From the NCBI RefSeq assembly GCF_003113265.1, contig NZ_PUIV01000017.1:1-64000 (forward strand): DNA of 64,000 nt, read 5' to 3'. Within the stretch, counting starts at the first letter, position 1; each line of letters begins with the position of its first letter. Both the position numbers and the translations under genes were made by a program. Source of the stretch: Methylosinus sporium. Lineage in GTDB: Bacteria; Pseudomonadota; Alphaproteobacteria; Rhizobiales; Beijerinckiaceae. This document shows, piece after piece, positions 42,730-62,510 of the stretch. The notes under the pieces are model-generated. The model did not search any database, was not told where the DNA came from, and saw nothing but the letters and a program-made list of their open reading frames with translations.

Positions 42730-43974
42730 TCACTGCCCATCCACCATCGCGGTCGCGCTCGCATGAGAAGACAGGTCCGTCGCCTTGACTGTGGCCTGGG
42801 AGACATTCACAAGATGCACATCAATACGCGCCGTGACCGCCCCGACAGTCGTCGCGACCGACTGGAGTTCTCCGAAGCTCGTTGTCGTCGGAGCGCCGCC
42901 GGCTGTGATGCTGTATTCGATATTGACATTGCCATTCGGCGTAAAGTTCGTTCCATCTACTCTAAAGAACCTTCCGCCCGCATCCGTCAACGAGGAAATT
43001 GAGATTTGAGGCGTGACGCCGATGGGCTGAGTTCTGACGCCCGTAGCTGGGCTCCACCACAGAGAGCCGCGCTGGAAATCCTGCCGCCGGATGGGCGCCC
43101 CTTGATGTTCCTGGTATTCGGCCGTGATCGGATAGCCGAGCGCGCTCCGTTCCCAACCCATATCGGCCCATTTCTGACGGATCGCGCCATATATCTCGAC
43201 GGCGCCGGTTTGCGGCGTCCAATATATCGACGCCTCTGGCTTGCCGGGCGAATGAATAGCGCGAAAATGGTTGTATCTGCCGACCGTGTCTGGCGTCGTC
43301 GATTCGTCAATTATCGGATAGCCTAGCGCGCGCTCCCATCCAAGCTGCGCCCATTTGCCCCTGATAGCGCCGTAGACCGCGTGCGCCCCGGTCTCGGGCG
43401 TCCAGTAGATCGACGCCTCCGGTTTACCCGCCAAGTGAACCGCGCGAAAGTGATTGTATCTCCCGATGCTGTCGGGCGCCGTCGATTCGTCGGTAATCGG
43501 ATAGCCCAGGGCGCGCTCCCATCCAAGCTGCGCCCATTTGCCCCTGATAGCGCCGTAAACCGCGTGCGCCCCGGTCTCGGGCGTCCAGTAGATCGACGCC
43601 TCCGGCTTACCCGCCAAGTGAACCGCGCGAAAATGATTGTATCTCCCGATGCTGTCGGGCGCCGTCGATTCGTCGGTAATCGGATAGCCGTAATTTTCGA
43701 ATCCGGTTTGTGCCCACTTCTGTCCGATTGCGCCCCAGACGGCGTTCGCGCCGGTCTCTGGATGCCAATATATAAATCCAAATGCGAAGCGATTGAAGCG
43801 ACCGCCATAGCGCGCATCCGCCTCGTCGGAACGCGCGTCGCCGAGCGTTCCACGTTCGCCGCCCAGCGCCCGCCACTTGTCTCCGATCGCGCCATAGACA
43901 GCGAAAGCGCAAGCTGCCGTGGCGCAGAGGTTTCCAACGACAACAAGTCCGATCAAATATTTGTGATTACTCAC
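42730..43974 (-). CDS. LGFP-repeat secreted protein
   Basis: The 414-residue protein has a signal peptide (about 1-24). Five or so LGFP-type repeats follow (VYGAIRGKWAQLG..LGYPITDES..GRYNHF). Units 2 and 3 are a 61-residue (183-bp) tandem nearly identical at DNA level (two visible differences in about 120 bp). The last ~90 residues form a separate beta-rich, Ig-like domain. LGFP repeats are best known from cell-wall-linked actinobacterial proteins. GTG start 43974 after GGGAGG, 5 nt spacing. Local base composition is more AT-rich than neighbours, suggesting transfer. Likely surface or envelope binding; no enzyme domain. Confidence 0.85.
   Translation of the reverse strand: MSNHKYLIGLVVVGNLCATAACAFAVYGAIGDKWRALGGERGTLGDARSDEADARYGGRFNRFAFGFIYWHPETGANAVWGAIGQKWAQTGFENYGYPITDESTAPDSIGRYNHFRAVHLAGKPEASIYWTPETGAHAVYGAIRGKWAQLGWERALGYPITDESTAPDSIGRYNHFRAVHLAGKPEASIYWTPETGAHAVYGAIRGKWAQLGWERALGYPIIDESTTPDTVGRYNHFRAIHSPGKPEASIYWTPQTGAVEIYGAIRQKWADMGWERSALGYPITAEYQEHQGAPIRRQDFQRGSLWWSPATGVRTQPIGVTPQISISSLTDAGGRFFRVDGTNFTPNGNVNIEYSITAGGAPTTTSFGELQSVATTVGAVTARIDVHLVNVSQATVKATDLSSHASATAMVDGQ
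43378..43746 (-). repeat. Two 183-bp near-identical tandem repeats in the LGFP gene
   Basis: The sequence starting at 43381 recurs at 43564, a period of 183 bp (61 codons). About 120 bp show only two visible substitutions before the copies diverge. Further, more diverged units flank them. This indicates recent duplication or gene conversion and a risk of assembly collapse. Confidence 0.9.
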
Positions 43975-44408: not shown

Positions 44409-45650
44409 GTGGCGAAGCATAACAGCCTTTCGGATTACGCATCGAGACGATTTCGTTTCGCCGGCAATGCGCTCCTCCAATATCACGATCCCTTCTTCGC
44501 GCAGATCGATCGGCTTCGCGCCGATTTCGAGGCGAAGGGAACGCATTTCGTCAGCTTCGCCAATTACGACTATCTCGGCCTCGCCAATCACCCCAAGATT
44601 CTGGAGGAGGCCGATCGCGAGCTGCATCGGCTCGGCGTCGGCGCGCTGGCCTCGCGCCTCGTCGGCGGCGAGCGCTCGACGCACAAGCCCTTCGAGGCGG
44701 AGATCGCCGAATTTCTCGGCATGGAGGCGGCGCTGACGCTGGTCTCCGGCTATCTCGCCAATGTGACGACCATCTCCTGGCTGCTCGGCAAGCGCGACGC
44801 TCTGTTCATCGACGAGCTCGCCCACAACAGCATCGTCGCCGGCTGCGAAGCCTCGCCGGCCGAGGTCATCAAGTTCCGCCACAACGACTTCGAGCATCTG
44901 GACCATCTCCTCGCCAAGAAGCGCCAGGACTTCCGCCATGTGCTCATCGTCGTCGAGGGCATATACAGCATGGACGGCGACACCGCCGATCTGCCGCGAC
45001 TCGTGGAGCTGAAAGACCGCCACGACGCCTGGCTGATGGTCGATGAGGCGCATTCGCTCGGCGTGCTGGGCGAGACGGGCCGCGGCCTCGCCGAGCTGCA
45101 GGGCGTCGATCCCGGCCGGCTCGATCTCGTCGTCGGCACAATGTCGAAGACGCTCGCCTCCTGCGGCGGCTTCGTCTGCGCGAAAAAGCCGGTCATCGAC
45201 TGGTTCCGCTACACGCTGCCGGGCTTCGTCTACAGCGTCGGCCTCTCGCCGGTGATTCTCGCCTCGGCGCGCACCGCTCTGCGGCTGATGCAGGAGGAGA
45301 GCTGGCGCGTCGGCAAGCTCGCGCGCAACGCGGAGCTCTTCCGCGACTACGCCCATGCCAATGGGCTGAGCACCGGGCCGGCGATCGGCCGCGGCGTGGT
45401 GCCGATTCTGTTCCAGGACAGCGTCGAGACCATGTGGGCCTCGCAGCATCTGCTCGGCCTCGGCTTCTATGTGCCGCCGATCGTGCAGATCGGCGTGCCC
45501 AAAGACCAACCGCGTCTGCGTTTCTTCCTCTCCGCCAATCATTCCGAGGATGAGATTCGCGCCGTGCTCGACGCGCTGCGCGATCTGCCGCCGGTGGCCG
45601 CAGAGGCGCATGAATTGGTGAAAAAGGCGATGGCGGGCGCGAGCCTGTGA
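44409..45650 (+). CDS. Alpha-oxoamine synthase, probable serine palmitoyltransferase
   Basis: The 413-residue PLP enzyme of the alpha-oxoamine synthase family (SPT, BioF, Kbl, HemA) has PLP Lys247 in GTMSKTLASCGGF. Other blocks are FANYDYLGLANHP, ASRLVGGERSTHKPFE, DELAHNSIVAGC and VDEAHSLGVLGETGRG. It would condense an acyl thioester with an amino acid. The downstream genes (DEGS-like desaturase, FA2H-like hydroxylase, N-acyltransferase-like) make serine plus palmitoyl thioester (SPT) the best assignment. It starts with GTG directly after an in-frame stop, with only a weak GGGA upstream. First gene of a four-gene operon. No bio genes are nearby, which argues against BioF. Confidence 0.82.
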   Translation: MAKHNSLSDYASRRFRFAGNALLQYHDPFFAQIDRLRADFEAKGTHFVSFANYDYLGLANHPKILEEADRELHRLGVGALASRLVGGERSTHKPFEAEIAEFLGMEAALTLVSGYLANVTTISWLLGKRDALFIDELAHNSIVAGCEASPAEVIKFRHNDFEHLDHLLAKKRQDFRHVLIVVEGIYSMDGDTADLPRLVELKDRHDAWLMVDEAHSLGVLGETGRGLAELQGVDPGRLDLVVGTMSKTLASCGGFVCAKKPVIDWFRYTLPGFVYSVGLSPVILASARTALRLMQEESWRVGKLARNAELFRDYAHANGLSTGPAIGRGVVPILFQDSVETMWASQHLLGLGFYVPPIVQIGVPKDQPRLRFFLSANHSEDEIRAVLDALRDLPPVAAEAHELVKKAMAGASL

Positions 45651-45660
45651 GGGTAACGAG

Positions 45661-45724
45661 GGAGTGAGCGGGGCGTAAAGAAACGCAGGCCGCCGCTCGC
45701 GACCGCCTGCTCCCCACTCGCTCC
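45661..45724. repeat. Imperfect stem-loop between the spt and acyltransferase genes
   Basis: GGAGTGAGCGGGG (45661-45673) pairs with CCCCACTCGCTCC (45712-45724) at 11 of 13 positions, enclosing a GCAGGC/GCCTGC stem (45685-45690 and 45705-45710). It has no T-tract. It may be an attenuating or mRNA-stabilising element inside the operon. Confidence 0.5.
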
Positions 45725-45783
45725 GCTCTCCCGCGTCGATATGCCAGCTTTCGCTCGCTTCTCTAGCTCGATAGGTGTTCGCT

Positions 45784-46977
45784 ATGGCCGGCATCGAGAT
45801 TGTTCCTGTCGATAATCTTTTGCGATTCCTGACCTTCTGCAAGCTGCCGCGTCTCATCTATAAGGGCCAGAAAGGCTTCGCGCCTTCGCTCGACGCCGAG
45901 CGCTGGAATCTCTACAGCCACAAGCTCAATCCGCATTTCAAGCATGTCGAGGCGCAGGAGTTTCTGGCGCGCAGGGACGGCAAATGGGTCGGCCGCATCG
46001 GCGCGCAGGTCTATAAGCCCGAGATTCAGCCCGTCTCCACCTCGCGCTGGCAATTCGGCTCGCTCGACGCCATCGACGACATAGAGGTGGTGCGCGCGTT
46101 GACGCAGGCCGCAGAGGAATGGCTGCGCGCGCGCGGCGCGGAGACCATCGTCGGCCCCTTCGCACCGGACATCAATGGCGAAAGCGGCATGCTGATCGAC
46201 GGCTTCGAAGCGACGCCGATGTTTCTGATGCCCTGGCATCCGCCCTATCTGTCGCGGCTCATCGAGGCGCTGGGCTATGACAAGGCGAAGGATCTGATCT
46301 CCTACCGTCATCTCTCCGCGGAGCAGGATCTCAGCAAGGAACGCCGCATCGCGGATCGCCCCGAATGGCGCAACCGCTTGAAGATTCGCCAGCTCGATCG
46401 CGATCATCTGAAGCAGGGCGAAACCGCGCTGATGTCCGATCTCTTCAACGACGCCTGGCGCGGCAATTGGGGCTTCGTGCCGCTCGGCAAGGACGAACTC
46501 GACGGCTTCGCGGACCTCATGAAATATGTGATGCCGCCGGAATTCGGCATTGTGCTCGAATTCGACGGCGCGCCGGTCTCCTTCGCGGTGGCGCTGCCCA
46601 ATCTGCACGAGATCACCGCCGATTTCGACGGCAAGCTGCTGCCCTTCAATCTGTTCAAGCTGATCTCGCGCATCCGCAAGCACAAATTCTCGACCGCGCG
46701 CCTGCTGCTGCTCGGCACGCGCAAGACGCTGCAGAACAGCGCCACGGGCGGCGCGATCCTGCTGTCGCTGATCGAGGACATGCGGCGACGCAGCTGCGTC
46801 GACGCCAGCATCGTCGCGCTCGAGGCCGGCTGGGTGCTGGAGGACAATATGGGCATGCGCAAGCCGATCGAAATGTTCGGCGGCAAAATCGACAAGATTC
46901 ACCGCGTCTATGAGAAGCGCGTGGCGGGCGCGCCGCCCGCTGCAACCGAGGCTGTGAGAGAAGAGGCGACTCCATGA
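45784..46977 (+). CDS. GNAT-like N-acyltransferase, candidate bacterial ceramide synthase
   Basis: The 397-residue soluble protein has a duplicated GNAT-like pattern: IVGPFAPDINGESGMLIDGF (about 127-146) and PMFLMPWHPPYLSRLIEALGY, then a second half (about 210-380) with FVPLGKDELDGFADL and ALEAGWVLEDNMGMRKPIE. GNAT-fold acyltransferases are known as bacterial ceramide synthases (bCerS in Caulobacter); this gene lies directly after the SPT-like gene and overlaps the desaturase gene. It would acylate the amino group of the sphingoid base. Homology to bCerS itself is inferred, not shown. ATG 45784 with AGGTG upstream is preferred over GTG 45775. Confidence 0.65.
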   Translation: MAGIEIVPVDNLLRFLTFCKLPRLIYKGQKGFAPSLDAERWNLYSHKLNPHFKHVEAQEFLARRDGKWVGRIGAQVYKPEIQPVSTSRWQFGSLDAIDDIEVVRALTQAAEEWLRARGAETIVGPFAPDINGESGMLIDGFEATPMFLMPWHPPYLSRLIEALGYDKAKDLISYRHLSAEQDLSKERRIADRPEWRNRLKIRQLDRDHLKQGETALMSDLFNDAWRGNWGFVPLGKDELDGFADLMKYVMPPEFGIVLEFDGAPVSFAVALPNLHEITADFDGKLLPFNLFKLISRIRKHKFSTARLLLLGTRKTLQNSATGGAILLSLIEDMRRRSCVDASIVALEAGWVLEDNMGMRKPIEMFGGKIDKIHRVYEKRVAGAPPAATEAVREEATP

Positions 46978-47969
46978 ATGTCATCTCGATTTCTTCGACG
47001 TCCTCCGCCGATCGCTCGCATGTCGAGCGTCGCCGCCTCATTCTCGAGGCGCATCCGGAAGTGAGGACGCTGTTCGGCAAGGACGATCTCACTTTCAAGA
47101 TCACCGCCGGCATATTCGCCGGCCAGCTGCTGATCGCCGCCATTCTCGGCTGGCTCGGCCTCTCCTATTGGCCCCTGACCTTGCTGCTCGCCATTTGCGT
47201 CGGCGCCTTCGCCAATCACGCAGCTTTCGTCGCCATTCATGACGCAATCCATAATTGCGTGTTCGACAACACGCTCTACAACAAGCTCACCGCTCTGCTC
47301 GCCGATCTGCCCAACGCCTTTCCGACGGCGATGGGCTTTCGCTGCTATCACATCAAGCATCACTCGCATCTGTCAGCCTATGATTACGACGCCGACGTTC
47401 CGAGCCATTGGGAAGTGGAGTGGGTGGGCGACAGCACATGGCGCAAGGCGCTGTGGCTGTTCTTCTTCCCGGCGATCCAGCTGGCGCGCCTCTCCCGGCT
47501 CAAGGGCACTGTGCCGATCATGGGCCTGTGGACCTATATCAACGCGGCCGTCATCCTGCTCTTCGACATCTTCGTGCTCTGGGCCTTCGGCCCTAATGCG
47601 CTGCTCTATCTGATCCTCTCCTTCTGGTTCTCGGTCGGCGGGCTGCATCCCTTGAGCGCGCGCTGGGTGCAGGAGCATTTCGCCTTCGGCCCCAATCAGG
47701 GCACGTTCGACTATTACGGCCCGCTCAACAAAGTCGCGCTCAACATCGGCTATCACAACGAGCATCACGACTTTCACGAGATTCCCTGGCGCCGCCTGCC
47801 GGAGCTCACCGAAATGGCGCCCGAGTTCTACAAGCCGCTCGGCGCGCATTATTCGTGGTTCGCCCTGCTCGTCACCTTTGTCTTCGACCCGCGCTATTCG
47901 CTGCGGACGCGCTCCGCCAATGTGGAGGCCGCCAGCGCCGCGCAGCTCGTTCCCGTCCCGGCGGAGTAG
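46974..47969 (+). CDS. DEGS-like sphingolipid Delta4-desaturase
   Basis: The 331-residue integral membrane desaturase has three His boxes: HDAIH (H89, H93), HIKHH (H126, H129, H130) and HNEHH (H261, H264, H265). It carries the N-terminal Lipid_DES motif (HVERRRLILEAHPEV, 16-30). It also carries DEGS-specific blocks: YDADVPSHWEVEW, FDYYGPLNKVALNIGYHNEHH and DFHEIPWRRLPEL, which line up closely with eukaryotic dihydroceramide Delta4-desaturases. It should introduce a 4,5-double bond into a sphinganine-based lipid, needing an electron donor not encoded nearby. It overlaps the acyltransferase gene by 4 bp. Confidence 0.87.
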   Translation: MNVISISSTSSADRSHVERRRLILEAHPEVRTLFGKDDLTFKITAGIFAGQLLIAAILGWLGLSYWPLTLLLAICVGAFANHAAFVAIHDAIHNCVFDNTLYNKLTALLADLPNAFPTAMGFRCYHIKHHSHLSAYDYDADVPSHWEVEWVGDSTWRKALWLFFFPAIQLARLSRLKGTVPIMGLWTYINAAVILLFDIFVLWAFGPNALLYLILSFWFSVGGLHPLSARWVQEHFAFGPNQGTFDYYGPLNKVALNIGYHNEHHDFHEIPWRRLPELTEMAPEFYKPLGAHYSWFALLVTFVFDPRYSLRTRSANVEAASAAQLVPVPAE

Positions 47970-47977
47970 AGTTTCCC

Positions 47978-48622
47978 ATGACTGCGACCGAACACGAGGC
48001 GCTCGACGCCTCGCCGCGCCTCTTCGAGAGCGACCTTCTCGACAAATATTCGCGCGTCCATCATCTGACCCCGCCGCTCGTCTATGGGCCGATCATTCTC
48101 TGGCTGATCGCCTATGCGAGCAATTATGCGAGCGCGGGCTATATCCTCCTCGCCTTCGTCGCCGGCTATGCGGCCTGGACGCTCACCGAATATTTCGGCC
48201 ATCGCTTCCTGTTCCATACGGTGTTTCCGCTGCCCTTCGGGCTCGGGCCGCGCTTCCAGTTCCTCATCCATGGCGTGCATCACATCTATCCGAGCGATCC
48301 GCTGCGGCTCGTCATGCCGCCGCTGCTGTCGACGCCGATCATGCTGATCGCGCTCTCGCTCATCCGCCTCGTCTTCGGCGGCGATTTCGCCTGGCCCATG
48401 CTGGCGGGCTTCATCGCCGGCTATGTGCTCTATGACTGCGTGCATTATTGGACGCATCACGGCCAGCCCAAATCCAAGCTCGGCCATCTGGTGCGCCGGC
48501 TGCACATGCTGCATCATTTCCGTGATCCGGAGCGCGGCTTCGGCGTCCATGCGATCTGGTGGGATTACGTCTTCGGCACCAATTACGAGCAGGGCCAGAC
48601 GCCCGGAAACCGCGCGGTGTGA
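47978..48622 (+). CDS. FA2H/Scs7-like sphingolipid fatty acid 2-hydroxylase
   Basis: The 214-residue membrane enzyme has the di-iron His motifs in FA2H order: HRFLFH (75-80), HGVHH (98-102), DCVHYWTHH (153-161) and HMLHH (176-180), plus WDYVFGT. The spacing and surrounding text (IYPSDPLRLVMPP, GYVLYDCVHYWTHHG, GFGV) match fatty acid 2-hydroxylases acting on ceramide acyl chains. Unlike yeast Scs7 and human FA2H it has no cytochrome b5 domain. The start is 8 bp after the desaturase stop with GGAG overlapping that stop. Last gene of the operon. Confidence 0.86.
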   Translation: MTATEHEALDASPRLFESDLLDKYSRVHHLTPPLVYGPIILWLIAYASNYASAGYILLAFVAGYAAWTLTEYFGHRFLFHTVFPLPFGLGPRFQFLIHGVHHIYPSDPLRLVMPPLLSTPIMLIALSLIRLVFGGDFAWPMLAGFIAGYVLYDCVHYWTHHGQPKSKLGHLVRRLHMLHHFRDPERGFGVHAIWWDYVFGTNYEQGQTPGNRAV

Positions 48623-61794: not shown

Positions 61795-62510
61795 CTCGAG
61801 TGTCTTTGTGTTCGTAGGGAGGGATGTTTCTAGCCGCGGAGAAGCGCAGGGGGAAGGGGCGGTGTCAAGCGGCGGGGCGGCTCATGTCTCGATCGGGTGA
61901 AGGAGCGAATCCCCGACCCTCGTCCTGAGGAGCCGCCGCAGGCGGCGTCTCGAAGGACGGTCGCGAGCCGAATTCATGGGTTTCTCGCTGCGGCCGTCCT
62001 TCGAGACGCCCGCTTCGCGGGCTCCTCAGGACGAGGGGTTGGGAACTTCGTCCTTCGCCCATAGGGCCTGACCTTGGTGTCTTCATGGTGAAATTCGAAC
62101 CACGACGACACGAAGAGGCGCCCCGCCGCCGGAATCCGGCGCGGGAGGATGGGAGGTCCGGGACGCCGCGGCTCCGTTCGGCCGTGGCGTAAAAAGAGAC
62201 GCGCATCGAAGCCGGAAAGCATCCCGGACCACGGCCGCCTTTTCTGTTCGCCGCCTGCGGGCTCAGGGTTGTTTTCCCCTTTCGGGTAGTCTACCCCCGC
62301 GCGAGCCTCGGAAATTCGGCCGACTTTCGCATGTGTTCCCACATGCCTCAGCACGAAGGAGAAGCCGTGCCGGCGGCGTGGCGTCGCTCGAGACGAGAGA
62401 GGGTCTGCCCCCGCCCTTACGAACCGCGCCCCCGCCGACGCCGCCTACCCTTCAAGGCGACGCCCCACCGGCGGAGGCAGGGAAGAAGATAGGAATTTAG
62501 TCCGCAGACG
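61795..62510. other. 716-bp gene-free stretch with palindromic repeat element
   Basis: No convincing coding sequence lies here; the short frames derive from repeat DNA. It holds the inverted repeat at 61917-62037, a small palindrome CGCCGGA-A-TCCGGCG near 62135, and GC-rich low-complexity sequence at 62400-62480. It separates housekeeping aspS from the AT-richer RelA/SpoT patch. Confidence 0.6.
61917..62037. repeat. REP-like intergenic inverted repeat (about 44-bp arms)
   Basis: The outer arms CCCTCGTCCTGAGGA (61917-61931) and TCCTCAGGACGAGGG (62023-62037) are perfect complements. The inner arms GTCTCGAAGGACGG (61947-61960) and CCGTCCTTCGAGAC (61994-62007) are too. Each arm has its own small GC hairpin between. 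The pattern resembles dispersed intergenic palindromes common in Hyphomicrobiales. Confidence 0.85.

Follow-up and report, generated by a model that had tools for sequence, protein, structure and literature searches.

A methanotroph operon as the probable lipid-core half of a two-cluster pathway to unsaturated, hydroxylated glycosylceramides

Which lipid would be made by an operon that sets an alpha-oxoamine synthase and a putative acyltransferase beside a desaturase-like and a hydroxylase-like protein? The question is raised by four genes, P1 to P4 (Table 1), in a stretch of Methylosinus sporium DNA (contig NZ_PUIV01000017.1, positions 1 to 64,000; "the window" denotes this whole 64,000-nucleotide stretch). 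An initial annotation took the operon to produce a eukaryote-like hydroxylated, Delta4-unsaturated ceramide. The analysis presented here makes it probable that Methylosinus and its relatives among the Methylocystaceae and Beijerinckiaceae build a sphingolipid with two gene clusters, of which the operon supplies the lipid-core half. This would constitute a variant bacterial route to a Delta4-unsaturated (or C4-hydroxylated), 2-hydroxylated glycosylceramide. Of this assignment, the well supported part is ceramide synthesis; the regiochemistry, the sugar and the amino-acid substrate are those that would be expected from the enzyme families. The four open reading frames share the forward strand and lie where the initial annotation placed them, and re-measurement returned the same spacing (133 bp between P1 and P2, an overlap of 4 bp between P2 and P3 and 8 bp between P3 and P4). 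An alternative in-frame GTG for P2 is present at 45775. The GC content of the operon (0.60-0.65 per kb) is close to that of the flanking DNA, and there is therefore no sign of recent acquisition.

The strongest single anchor of the ceramide reading among the operon proteins is P2. In a single comparison, P2 was 37% identical to YghO of Escherichia coli BL21 over 378 amino acids (231 bits, E 7e-77). The gene yghO (ECD_02850) and Caulobacter CC_1154 are listed among the aca N-acyltransferase genes in the sections available of one study, where it is suggested that the YghO product might be the N-acyltransferase (PMC9386255), and CC_1154 is described, in the accessible part of another, as needed for dihydroceramide formation (PMC11324152). 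In E. coli BL21, yghO adjoins genes for a fatty acyl-AMP ligase, an epimerase-type protein, an acyl carrier protein (ACP) and spt. P2 itself gave no Pfam or NCBIfam match at E <= 0.001; a relative that is 32% identical (locus L110) matched the GNAT family PF00583 with 49 bits. A structural model of P2, built from 11 sequences (mean predicted local distance difference test score, pLDDT, 77), matched 110 PDB chains at E <= 0.001. Tandem GNATs head the 50 chains listed (best E 1.8e-12), and N-myristoyltransferases appear lower down. The GNAT-like acyltransferase candidate of the initial annotation can now be named, by comparison with YghO, as a bacterial ceramide synthase homologue with a predicted GNAT-like fold.

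P3 is predicted to be a sphingolipid Delta4-desaturase (or C4-hydroxylase) of the DEGS family. Pfam matches to PF00487 (FA_desaturase, 72 bits) and, at the N terminus, to PF08557 (Lipid_DES, 32.2 bits; cut-off 23) were obtained, and both domains are kept in all four distant homologues scanned (L099, L101, L114 and L115), which come from Bacteroidota, Verrucomicrobiota (two) and Phreatobacter. Three His boxes (H89..H93, H126xxHH and H261NEHH) are invariant in 18 homologues, as is the motif GYHNEHHDF. The DEGS-like call made initially is thus borne out by the Lipid_DES domain and the His boxes. The same domain sets P3 apart from an ordinary fatty acid desaturase, since it is missing from the other fatty acid desaturase of the host genome.

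Relatives of P3 are numerous. Identities of 98, 93 and 74% were found in three genomes of the same genus, and of 93 and 88% in two Methylosinus records, which, with the Methylosinus-1 RNA present in the window, fits a Methylosinus-like genome; given that a scan of one genome per species returned at least 573 relatives, bacterial members of the family are not rare. In a tree of 32 rows, all bacterial, P3 falls within a methanotroph/Beijerinckiaceae clade of 13 rows (support 100/99); a second group, made up mainly of Bacteroidota and Verrucomicrobiota, is separate but without firm support. A profile built from 18 desaturases returned nothing relevant from the PDB. The P3 model (mean pLDDT 80) had no Foldseek match in the PDB at E <= 0.001; the top two hits (E 1.8e-3 and 2.4e-3) are chains of the chloroplast FtsHi motor complex, and the third is AlkB. 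Against BFVD, one match at E 7e-4 was obtained, together with other giant-virus desaturases. Among viral contigs, none of 39 pattern matches was a relative, and a plasmid search gave no match.

P4 is predicted to be an FA2H/Scs7-like 2-hydroxylase acting on a fatty acid, namely the ceramide acyl chain. It carries PF04116 (FA_hydroxylase, 56 bits), in the PDB it matches only the Scs7 entries 4zr1 (E = 8e-23) and 4zr0 (2e-22) at E <= 10, and the His motifs of the two proteins align, all of which agrees with the FA2H-like call made earlier. The yeast enzyme has a fused cytochrome b5 domain; a Pfam scan of the 214 residues of P4 detected PF04116 only and no such domain. An Arabidopsis homologue without cytochrome b5 is functional, according to the title of a paper in a reference list.

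DEGS2-type enzymes are bifunctional, and P3 could accordingly be a C4- or acyl-chain hydroxylase, not a Delta4-desaturase, leaving a phytosphingosine-like base or an acyl chain with an extra hydroxyl group. The C4-hydroxylase part of this alternative overlaps the assignment given above. A DesA-family desaturase/hydroxylase of Caulobacter, CC_0202, is reported, in the available part of the paper, to add a hydroxyl group to the acyl chain in amide linkage (PMC11324152). Given that P3 has the N-terminal Lipid_DES domain and that the operon already encodes a separate FA2H-like enzyme, we regard the hydroxylase alternative as unlikely.

Two further features adjoin desaturase genes of this family elsewhere (Table 1). 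In several Bacteroidota loci, a small frame of 115-124 amino acids, supported by cross-locus similarity, lies directly downstream of the desaturase; the only one scanned, in L106, gave no Pfam match. In a Phreatobacter bin (L104), an oxidoreductase with FAD, NAD and 2Fe-2S domains is convergent with the desaturase and might supply electrons to a desaturase that lacks cytochrome b5.

Gene linkage was assessed in the best-scoring 80 of the at least 573 desaturase relatives, a set that leans to close relatives and in which many loci are incomplete; gene presence was scored by set bit cut-offs. All three of P1, P2 and P3 are present in 55 of the 80 loci, and in 53 of these 55 they share a strand, which excludes chance association. 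Counts for individual genes were 57 for P1, 57 for P2 and 38 for P4. Further genes detected were a family 2 glycosyltransferase (GT2, 19), a MaoC-like dehydratase (17), a short-chain dehydrogenase/reductase (SDR, 16), a ketoacyl synthase (KAS, 14), an ACP (13) and a family 21 glycosyltransferase (GT21, 5). Ten loci show P1-P2-P3 followed by convergent GT2, SDR, MaoC, KAS and ACP; in three of these ten, P4 is present and GT21 was detected as well. In locus L071, the gene after the operon is a GT21. The association of GT2, ceramide synthase, alpha-oxoamine synthase and desaturase recurs in another phylum, in an Opitutaceae bin (L114).

The genes that neighbour the operon in relatives (GT2, SDR, KAS and an ACP-like gene) have their homologues in the Methylosinus genome (G000) on a second contig, C16, where ACP, KAS, MaoC, SDR, GT21 and GT2 follow one another in that order on one strand. 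The MaoC domain occupies residues 111-186 of its frame, so the start of this gene is unsure. The ACP is 28% identical to its dedicated E. coli counterpart over 58 amino acids (30 bits). The GT21 matches PF13506 with 152 bits, and its only PDB matches at E <= 1 are to ceramide glucosyltransferase (26qf/26qs, 107 bits, E = 9e-30). The operon is probably half of a pathway whose other half is on C16 and in some relatives adjoins the operon directly, and the end product is therefore probably a glycosylceramide. Of the four-gene account given by the initial annotation, the ceramide core is supported; the C16 cluster and glycosylation had been missed.

The two clusters were followed through 119 genomes of the host family, representing 43 genera. 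Set levels were E < 1e-100 for the desaturase (DES), < 1e-130 for the ceramide synthase (CerS), < 1e-80 for GT21, < 1e-60 for the hydroxylase (FAH) and < 1e-80 for SDR. DES was found in 28 of the 119 genomes and CerS in the identical 28; GT21 (27), FAH (27) and SDR (25) all fall within this set, with one genome that is 84% complete (G102) as the exception for these three. Outside the 28, none of the 119 genomes reached the set levels for CerS, GT21, FAH or SDR. Weaker matches there were DES-like in six genomes (5.6e-8 to 1e-3), CerS-like in five (1e-39 to 1e-83), GT21-like in 30 (1e-32 to 1e-57), FAH-like in seven (1.7e-13 to 1.4e-17) and SDR-like in 11 (1e-47 to 1e-53). Of the 27 genomes with FAH, 14 have its start within 3.5 kb of DES and 14 within 3.5 kb of GT21; in two genomes it is close to both, in one to neither. 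The hydroxylase is thereby connected with each half of the pathway. When GT21 of any kind was counted (E <= 1e-30), 57 of the 119 genomes were positive, 30 of them outside the DES set; thus, the wider GT21 group does not track DES, whereas the operon-linked type does. In three genomes (G022, G023 and G062), a CerS homologue that is 36-42% identical occurs without a desaturase match, perhaps as part of a plain dihydroceramide pathway.

These distributions bear on the proposal that the genes serve no sphingolipid at all, with the desaturase and hydroxylase acting on hopanoids or phospholipid acyl chains and P1 and P2 making an unrelated N-acyl amino ketone. In the methanotroph Methylovulum, a member of the FA_hydroxylase superfamily is a proposed hopanoid desaturase, according to the part of the report available (PMC6460317), and the sole NCBIfam match of the operon-linked GT21 at E <= 0.01 is HpnI, at 149.5 of the 310 bits required. 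Set against this are the identical 28-genome distribution of CerS and DES, the presence of FAH in 27 of those genomes and the tracking of DES by the operon-linked GT21 type but not by the wider group. A non-sphingolipid pathway is accordingly highly improbable.

Several observations weigh against the two-cluster glycosylceramide pathway, and they begin with its first enzyme. P1 is an alpha-oxoamine synthase (PF00155, 158 bits) with the pyridoxal phosphate lysine of that family, Lys247, which lies inside GTMSKTLASCGG as the initial annotation had stated. Its best PDB matches are two serine palmitoyltransferase (SPT) chains (3a2b/8guh, 219.6 bits), with Kbl (1fc4) close at 215.9, and it is 34% identical to E. 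coli BL21 Spt (207 bits). P1 scores below all three NCBIfam SPT cut-offs (NF047599, 302/500; NF047600, 273/640; NF047603, 217/670), the first of which is cleared by the E. coli Spt control (599/500). It is likewise below the cut-offs of BioF (347/426), Kbl (285/460) and HemA (235/339). In a tree of 37 rows, P1 and its orthologues form a clade of their own (17 rows, 100/99), which takes in the synthase genes adjoining DES in an alphaproteobacterial bin (L111) and the Opitutaceae bin (L114). It lies outside the canonical SPT clade (14 rows, 99/96), made up of 13 canonical proteobacterial SPT rows and PDB 3a2b. The tree allows several deep positions for P1: in approximately unbiased (AU) topology tests, union with SPT (p-AU 0.156), BioF (0.274) or Kbl (0.08) was not rejected, and in the free tree P1 is nearest HemA at 88/57, which is not real support. 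When E. coli Spt was searched against 385 genomes of the class, 50 had a match at E <= 1e-60, and the Methylosinus genome was not among them.

HemA identity was rejected for P1 because the genome has a separate HemA on contig C46 (TIGR01821, 569 bits; cut-off 339). The copy on C17 is the likely BioF, though below the BioF cut-off (344/426), and a role for P1 in biotin synthesis is disfavoured. The claim that the operon starts with an SPT therefore survives in part: an alpha-oxoamine synthase is present, strict SPT status is not sustained, and P1 is best described as a non-canonical SPT candidate that would convert serine and an acyl-ACP or acyl-CoA to 3-ketosphinganine. Grouping of the synthase with BioF or HemA, which the initial annotation had named as evidence against its reading, is neither confirmed nor dismissed by the tree. 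In two Verrucomicrobiota bins (L110 and L115), alpha-oxoamine synthases of another lineage than P1 lie near the desaturase, and DES thus has at least two types of synthase as partners; L115 also has an adjoining FA2H-like gene, and in L110 a ceramide-synthase homologue lies ~7 kb from the desaturase.

The position of P1 outside the canonical clade and below the SPT cut-offs would also suit an enzyme that uses another amino acid, such as cysteate, as in sulfonolipids, or alanine or glycine, as in 1-deoxyceramides, to give a ceramide analogue; its relatives in the PDB include a cysteate fatty acyltransferase (28eh, 138.6 bits). Given that SPT chains top the PDB scores, with Kbl close behind, and that the linked glycosyltransferase would, by inference from co-occurrence, need the C1 hydroxyl that deoxy and sulfono bases lack, use of another amino acid appears distinctly unlikely.

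The remaining points on the unfavorable side concern the rest of the gene set. An HpnI-like GT21 paralogue on contig C11 matches the same PDB entries better than the C16 protein (140 bits, E = 6e-40), and it too is below the HpnI cut-off of 310 (172-176). Identification of the C16 protein as a ceramide glucosyltransferase from its PDB score was dropped on the strength of this control, and sugar transfer is instead proposed from the co-occurrence of its gene with those for ceramide, because the PDB match is not specific. A search of the genome found no close CerR (NAD epimerase type; the best of three matches had 51 bits and 32% identity) and no AasR-like gene beside either cluster; the best AasR-like matches, 35% on C11 and 37% on C12, are in frames of 1068 and 2898 amino acids. 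The KAS-MaoC-SDR set may replace these two functions. The co-occurrence cut-offs were placed in score gaps after the lists had been seen, and in two near-complete or partial genomes (G009 and G050) the best SDR match, 1e-54 to 1e-56, was no better than that of strangers. The 28 DES genomes span nine of the 43 genera and may share one gain, so they amount to far fewer than 28 independent cases. Finally, in 18 of the 80 loci (from Bacteroidota, Phreatobacter-like bins and one Rhizobiales bin) P3 is alone within the DNA examined.

From enzyme families, linkage and co-occurrence, all of which are seen directly in the sequences, we infer every substrate, the order of the steps and the products of the two-cluster pathway. 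An acyl chain made or extended by KAS, MaoC and perhaps SDR would be carried by the dedicated C16 ACP. P1 would join the acyl group to serine, giving 3-ketosphinganine. N-acylation by P2 and reduction of the 3-keto group by SDR, in either order, would yield dihydroceramide. P3 would then desaturate C4-C5 (or hydroxylate C4), P4 would 2-hydroxylate the amide-linked acyl chain, and GT21, then perhaps GT2, would attach the sugar(s). Bacteroides BT_0972 offers a precedent for an SDR as 3-ketosphinganine reductase, in the available part of the source (PMC9278070); equally possible is a role for the SDR as reductase of the elongation module. The gene set conserved in this methanotroph and its relatives thus looks able, as judged from sequence, to build sugar-linked, hydroxylated, desaturated ceramides that resemble those of animals, plants and fungi. 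The expectation that these lipids would be closer to eukaryotic ceramides than dihydroceramides are is supported by a DEGS-type oxygenase and an Scs7/FA2H-type hydroxylase in a ceramide pathway. A more specific proposal is tied to one product, a Delta4-unsaturated, 2-hydroxylated glucosylceramide. That this is made in type II methanotrophs and related Beijerinckiaceae by a bacterial route, through a dedicated ACP/fatty-acid elongation module coupled directly to a new SPT lineage, is tentative and in our judgment falls a little short of being likely.

Other features of the genome are collected in Table 1. Upstream of the operon, on the opposite strand, the window encodes an LGFP-repeat protein, and it also contains an Rfam Methylosinus-1 RNA, a listed small RNA family. 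The GT21 paralogue on C11 has an autotransporter-like frame within the 6 kb examined there.

Table 1. Location and properties of the operon genes, the C16 cluster and other features mentioned in the text
Feature	Location	Strand	Properties
P1, alpha-oxoamine synthase	window 44409-45650	+	GTG start, 413 aa; PF00155
P2, bacterial ceramide synthase homologue (bCerS/Aca/YghO family), predicted GNAT-fold N-acyltransferase	window 45784-46977	+	ATG start, 397 aa
P3, predicted DEGS-family desaturase (or C4-hydroxylase), membrane His-box enzyme	window 46974-47969	+	331 aa; PF00487 + PF08557
P4, FA2H/Scs7-like 2-hydroxylase candidate	window 47978-48622	+	ATG start, 214 aa; PF04116
ACP	C16		93 aa
KAS	C16		414 aa
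MaoC-like dehydratase	C16		226-aa frame
SDR	C16		265 aa
GT21	C16		393 aa
GT2	C16		430 aa
Second GT21-family glycosyltransferase	C11 402197-403288 (L176 2198-3289)	-	HpnI-like
Alpha-oxoamine synthase of other lineage	L110 7819-9135		Verrucomicrobiota bin
Alpha-oxoamine synthase of other lineage	L115 13551-14864		Verrucomicrobiota bin
Oxidoreductase	L104 10924-12006	-	Phreatobacter bin
Small frame	L106 11000-11353		
Small frame	L107 10988-11335		
Small frame	L095 7070-7444		
Small frame	L113 9481-9834		
LGFP-repeat protein	window 42730-43974	-	6 matched stretches
Methylosinus-1 RNA (RF03108)	window 62222-62432	-	210 bits; gathering 145

A co-inherited gene set in cultured methanotrophs provides a concrete gene list with which the prediction can be tested. 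It matters for two questions: how eukaryotes came to modify their ceramides, and whether glycosylceramides that are unsaturated or hydroxylated can serve to indicate eukaryotes. If the prediction is true, the full range of eukaryotic modifying enzymes (DEGS, FA2H and GT21) exists in bacteria, and soil or wetland glucosylceramides of this kind would not be readable as eukaryotic markers. In the parts of the sources available, a 2020 taxonomy paper described sphingolipids in Alphaproteobacteria as apparently restricted to Sphingomonadales (PMC7179689), and later work showed that Caulobacter and others make them via canonical SPT, AcpR, AasR, CerR and CerS (PMC9386255, PMC11324152), the canonical bacterial SPT co-occurring with AcpR and AasR (PMC9386255). 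A study of the Black Sea ascribes its ceramide structures to bacteria; about half of them have one double-bond equivalent in the base, and the text of that study, as far as it was available, never uses the word desaturase (PMC11334938). Among the matches listed from the open-license PMC literature, none described the operon, a Lipid_DES enzyme from bacteria or sphingolipids made by Methylocystaceae or Beijerinckiaceae, a search by which novelty is only weakly tested.

Each enzyme family is known, and the combination would, subject to that weak test, be a new form of bacterial sphingolipid biosynthesis; it is placed apart from the canonical SPT-based pathway because P1 missed the SPT cut-offs. 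With the dihydroceramide pathway of Caulobacter and E. coli BL21 (aasR, cerR, acpR, spt and bcerS), the Methylosinus set shares an alpha-oxoamine synthase, a YghO-type ceramide synthase and a dedicated ACP. It departs from that pathway in that its synthase branches apart from the canonical SPT clade, that neither cluster has an adjacent AasR-like gene and that the genome has no close CerR; KAS, MaoC and SDR may substitute for these two, and DEGS-, FA2H- and GT21-type enzymes are added. Sphingomonas likewise makes alphaproteobacterial sphingolipids with sugar on the ceramide; its known glycosphingolipid pathways use canonical SPT, and we know of no DEGS-type desaturase there. With the eukaryotic core (SPTLC, KDSR, DEGS1/2, FA2H/Scs7 and UGCG), the shared Pfam families are Lipid_DES, that of 2-hydroxylation (the Scs7 match) and GT21, together with an SDR as possible ketoreductase. 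Unlike the eukaryotic enzymes, the Methylosinus set probably receives its acyl groups from ACP and has a hydroxylase without a cytochrome b5 domain, and its ceramide synthase is of the bacterial GNAT type, whereas eukaryotes use LAG1/CerS.

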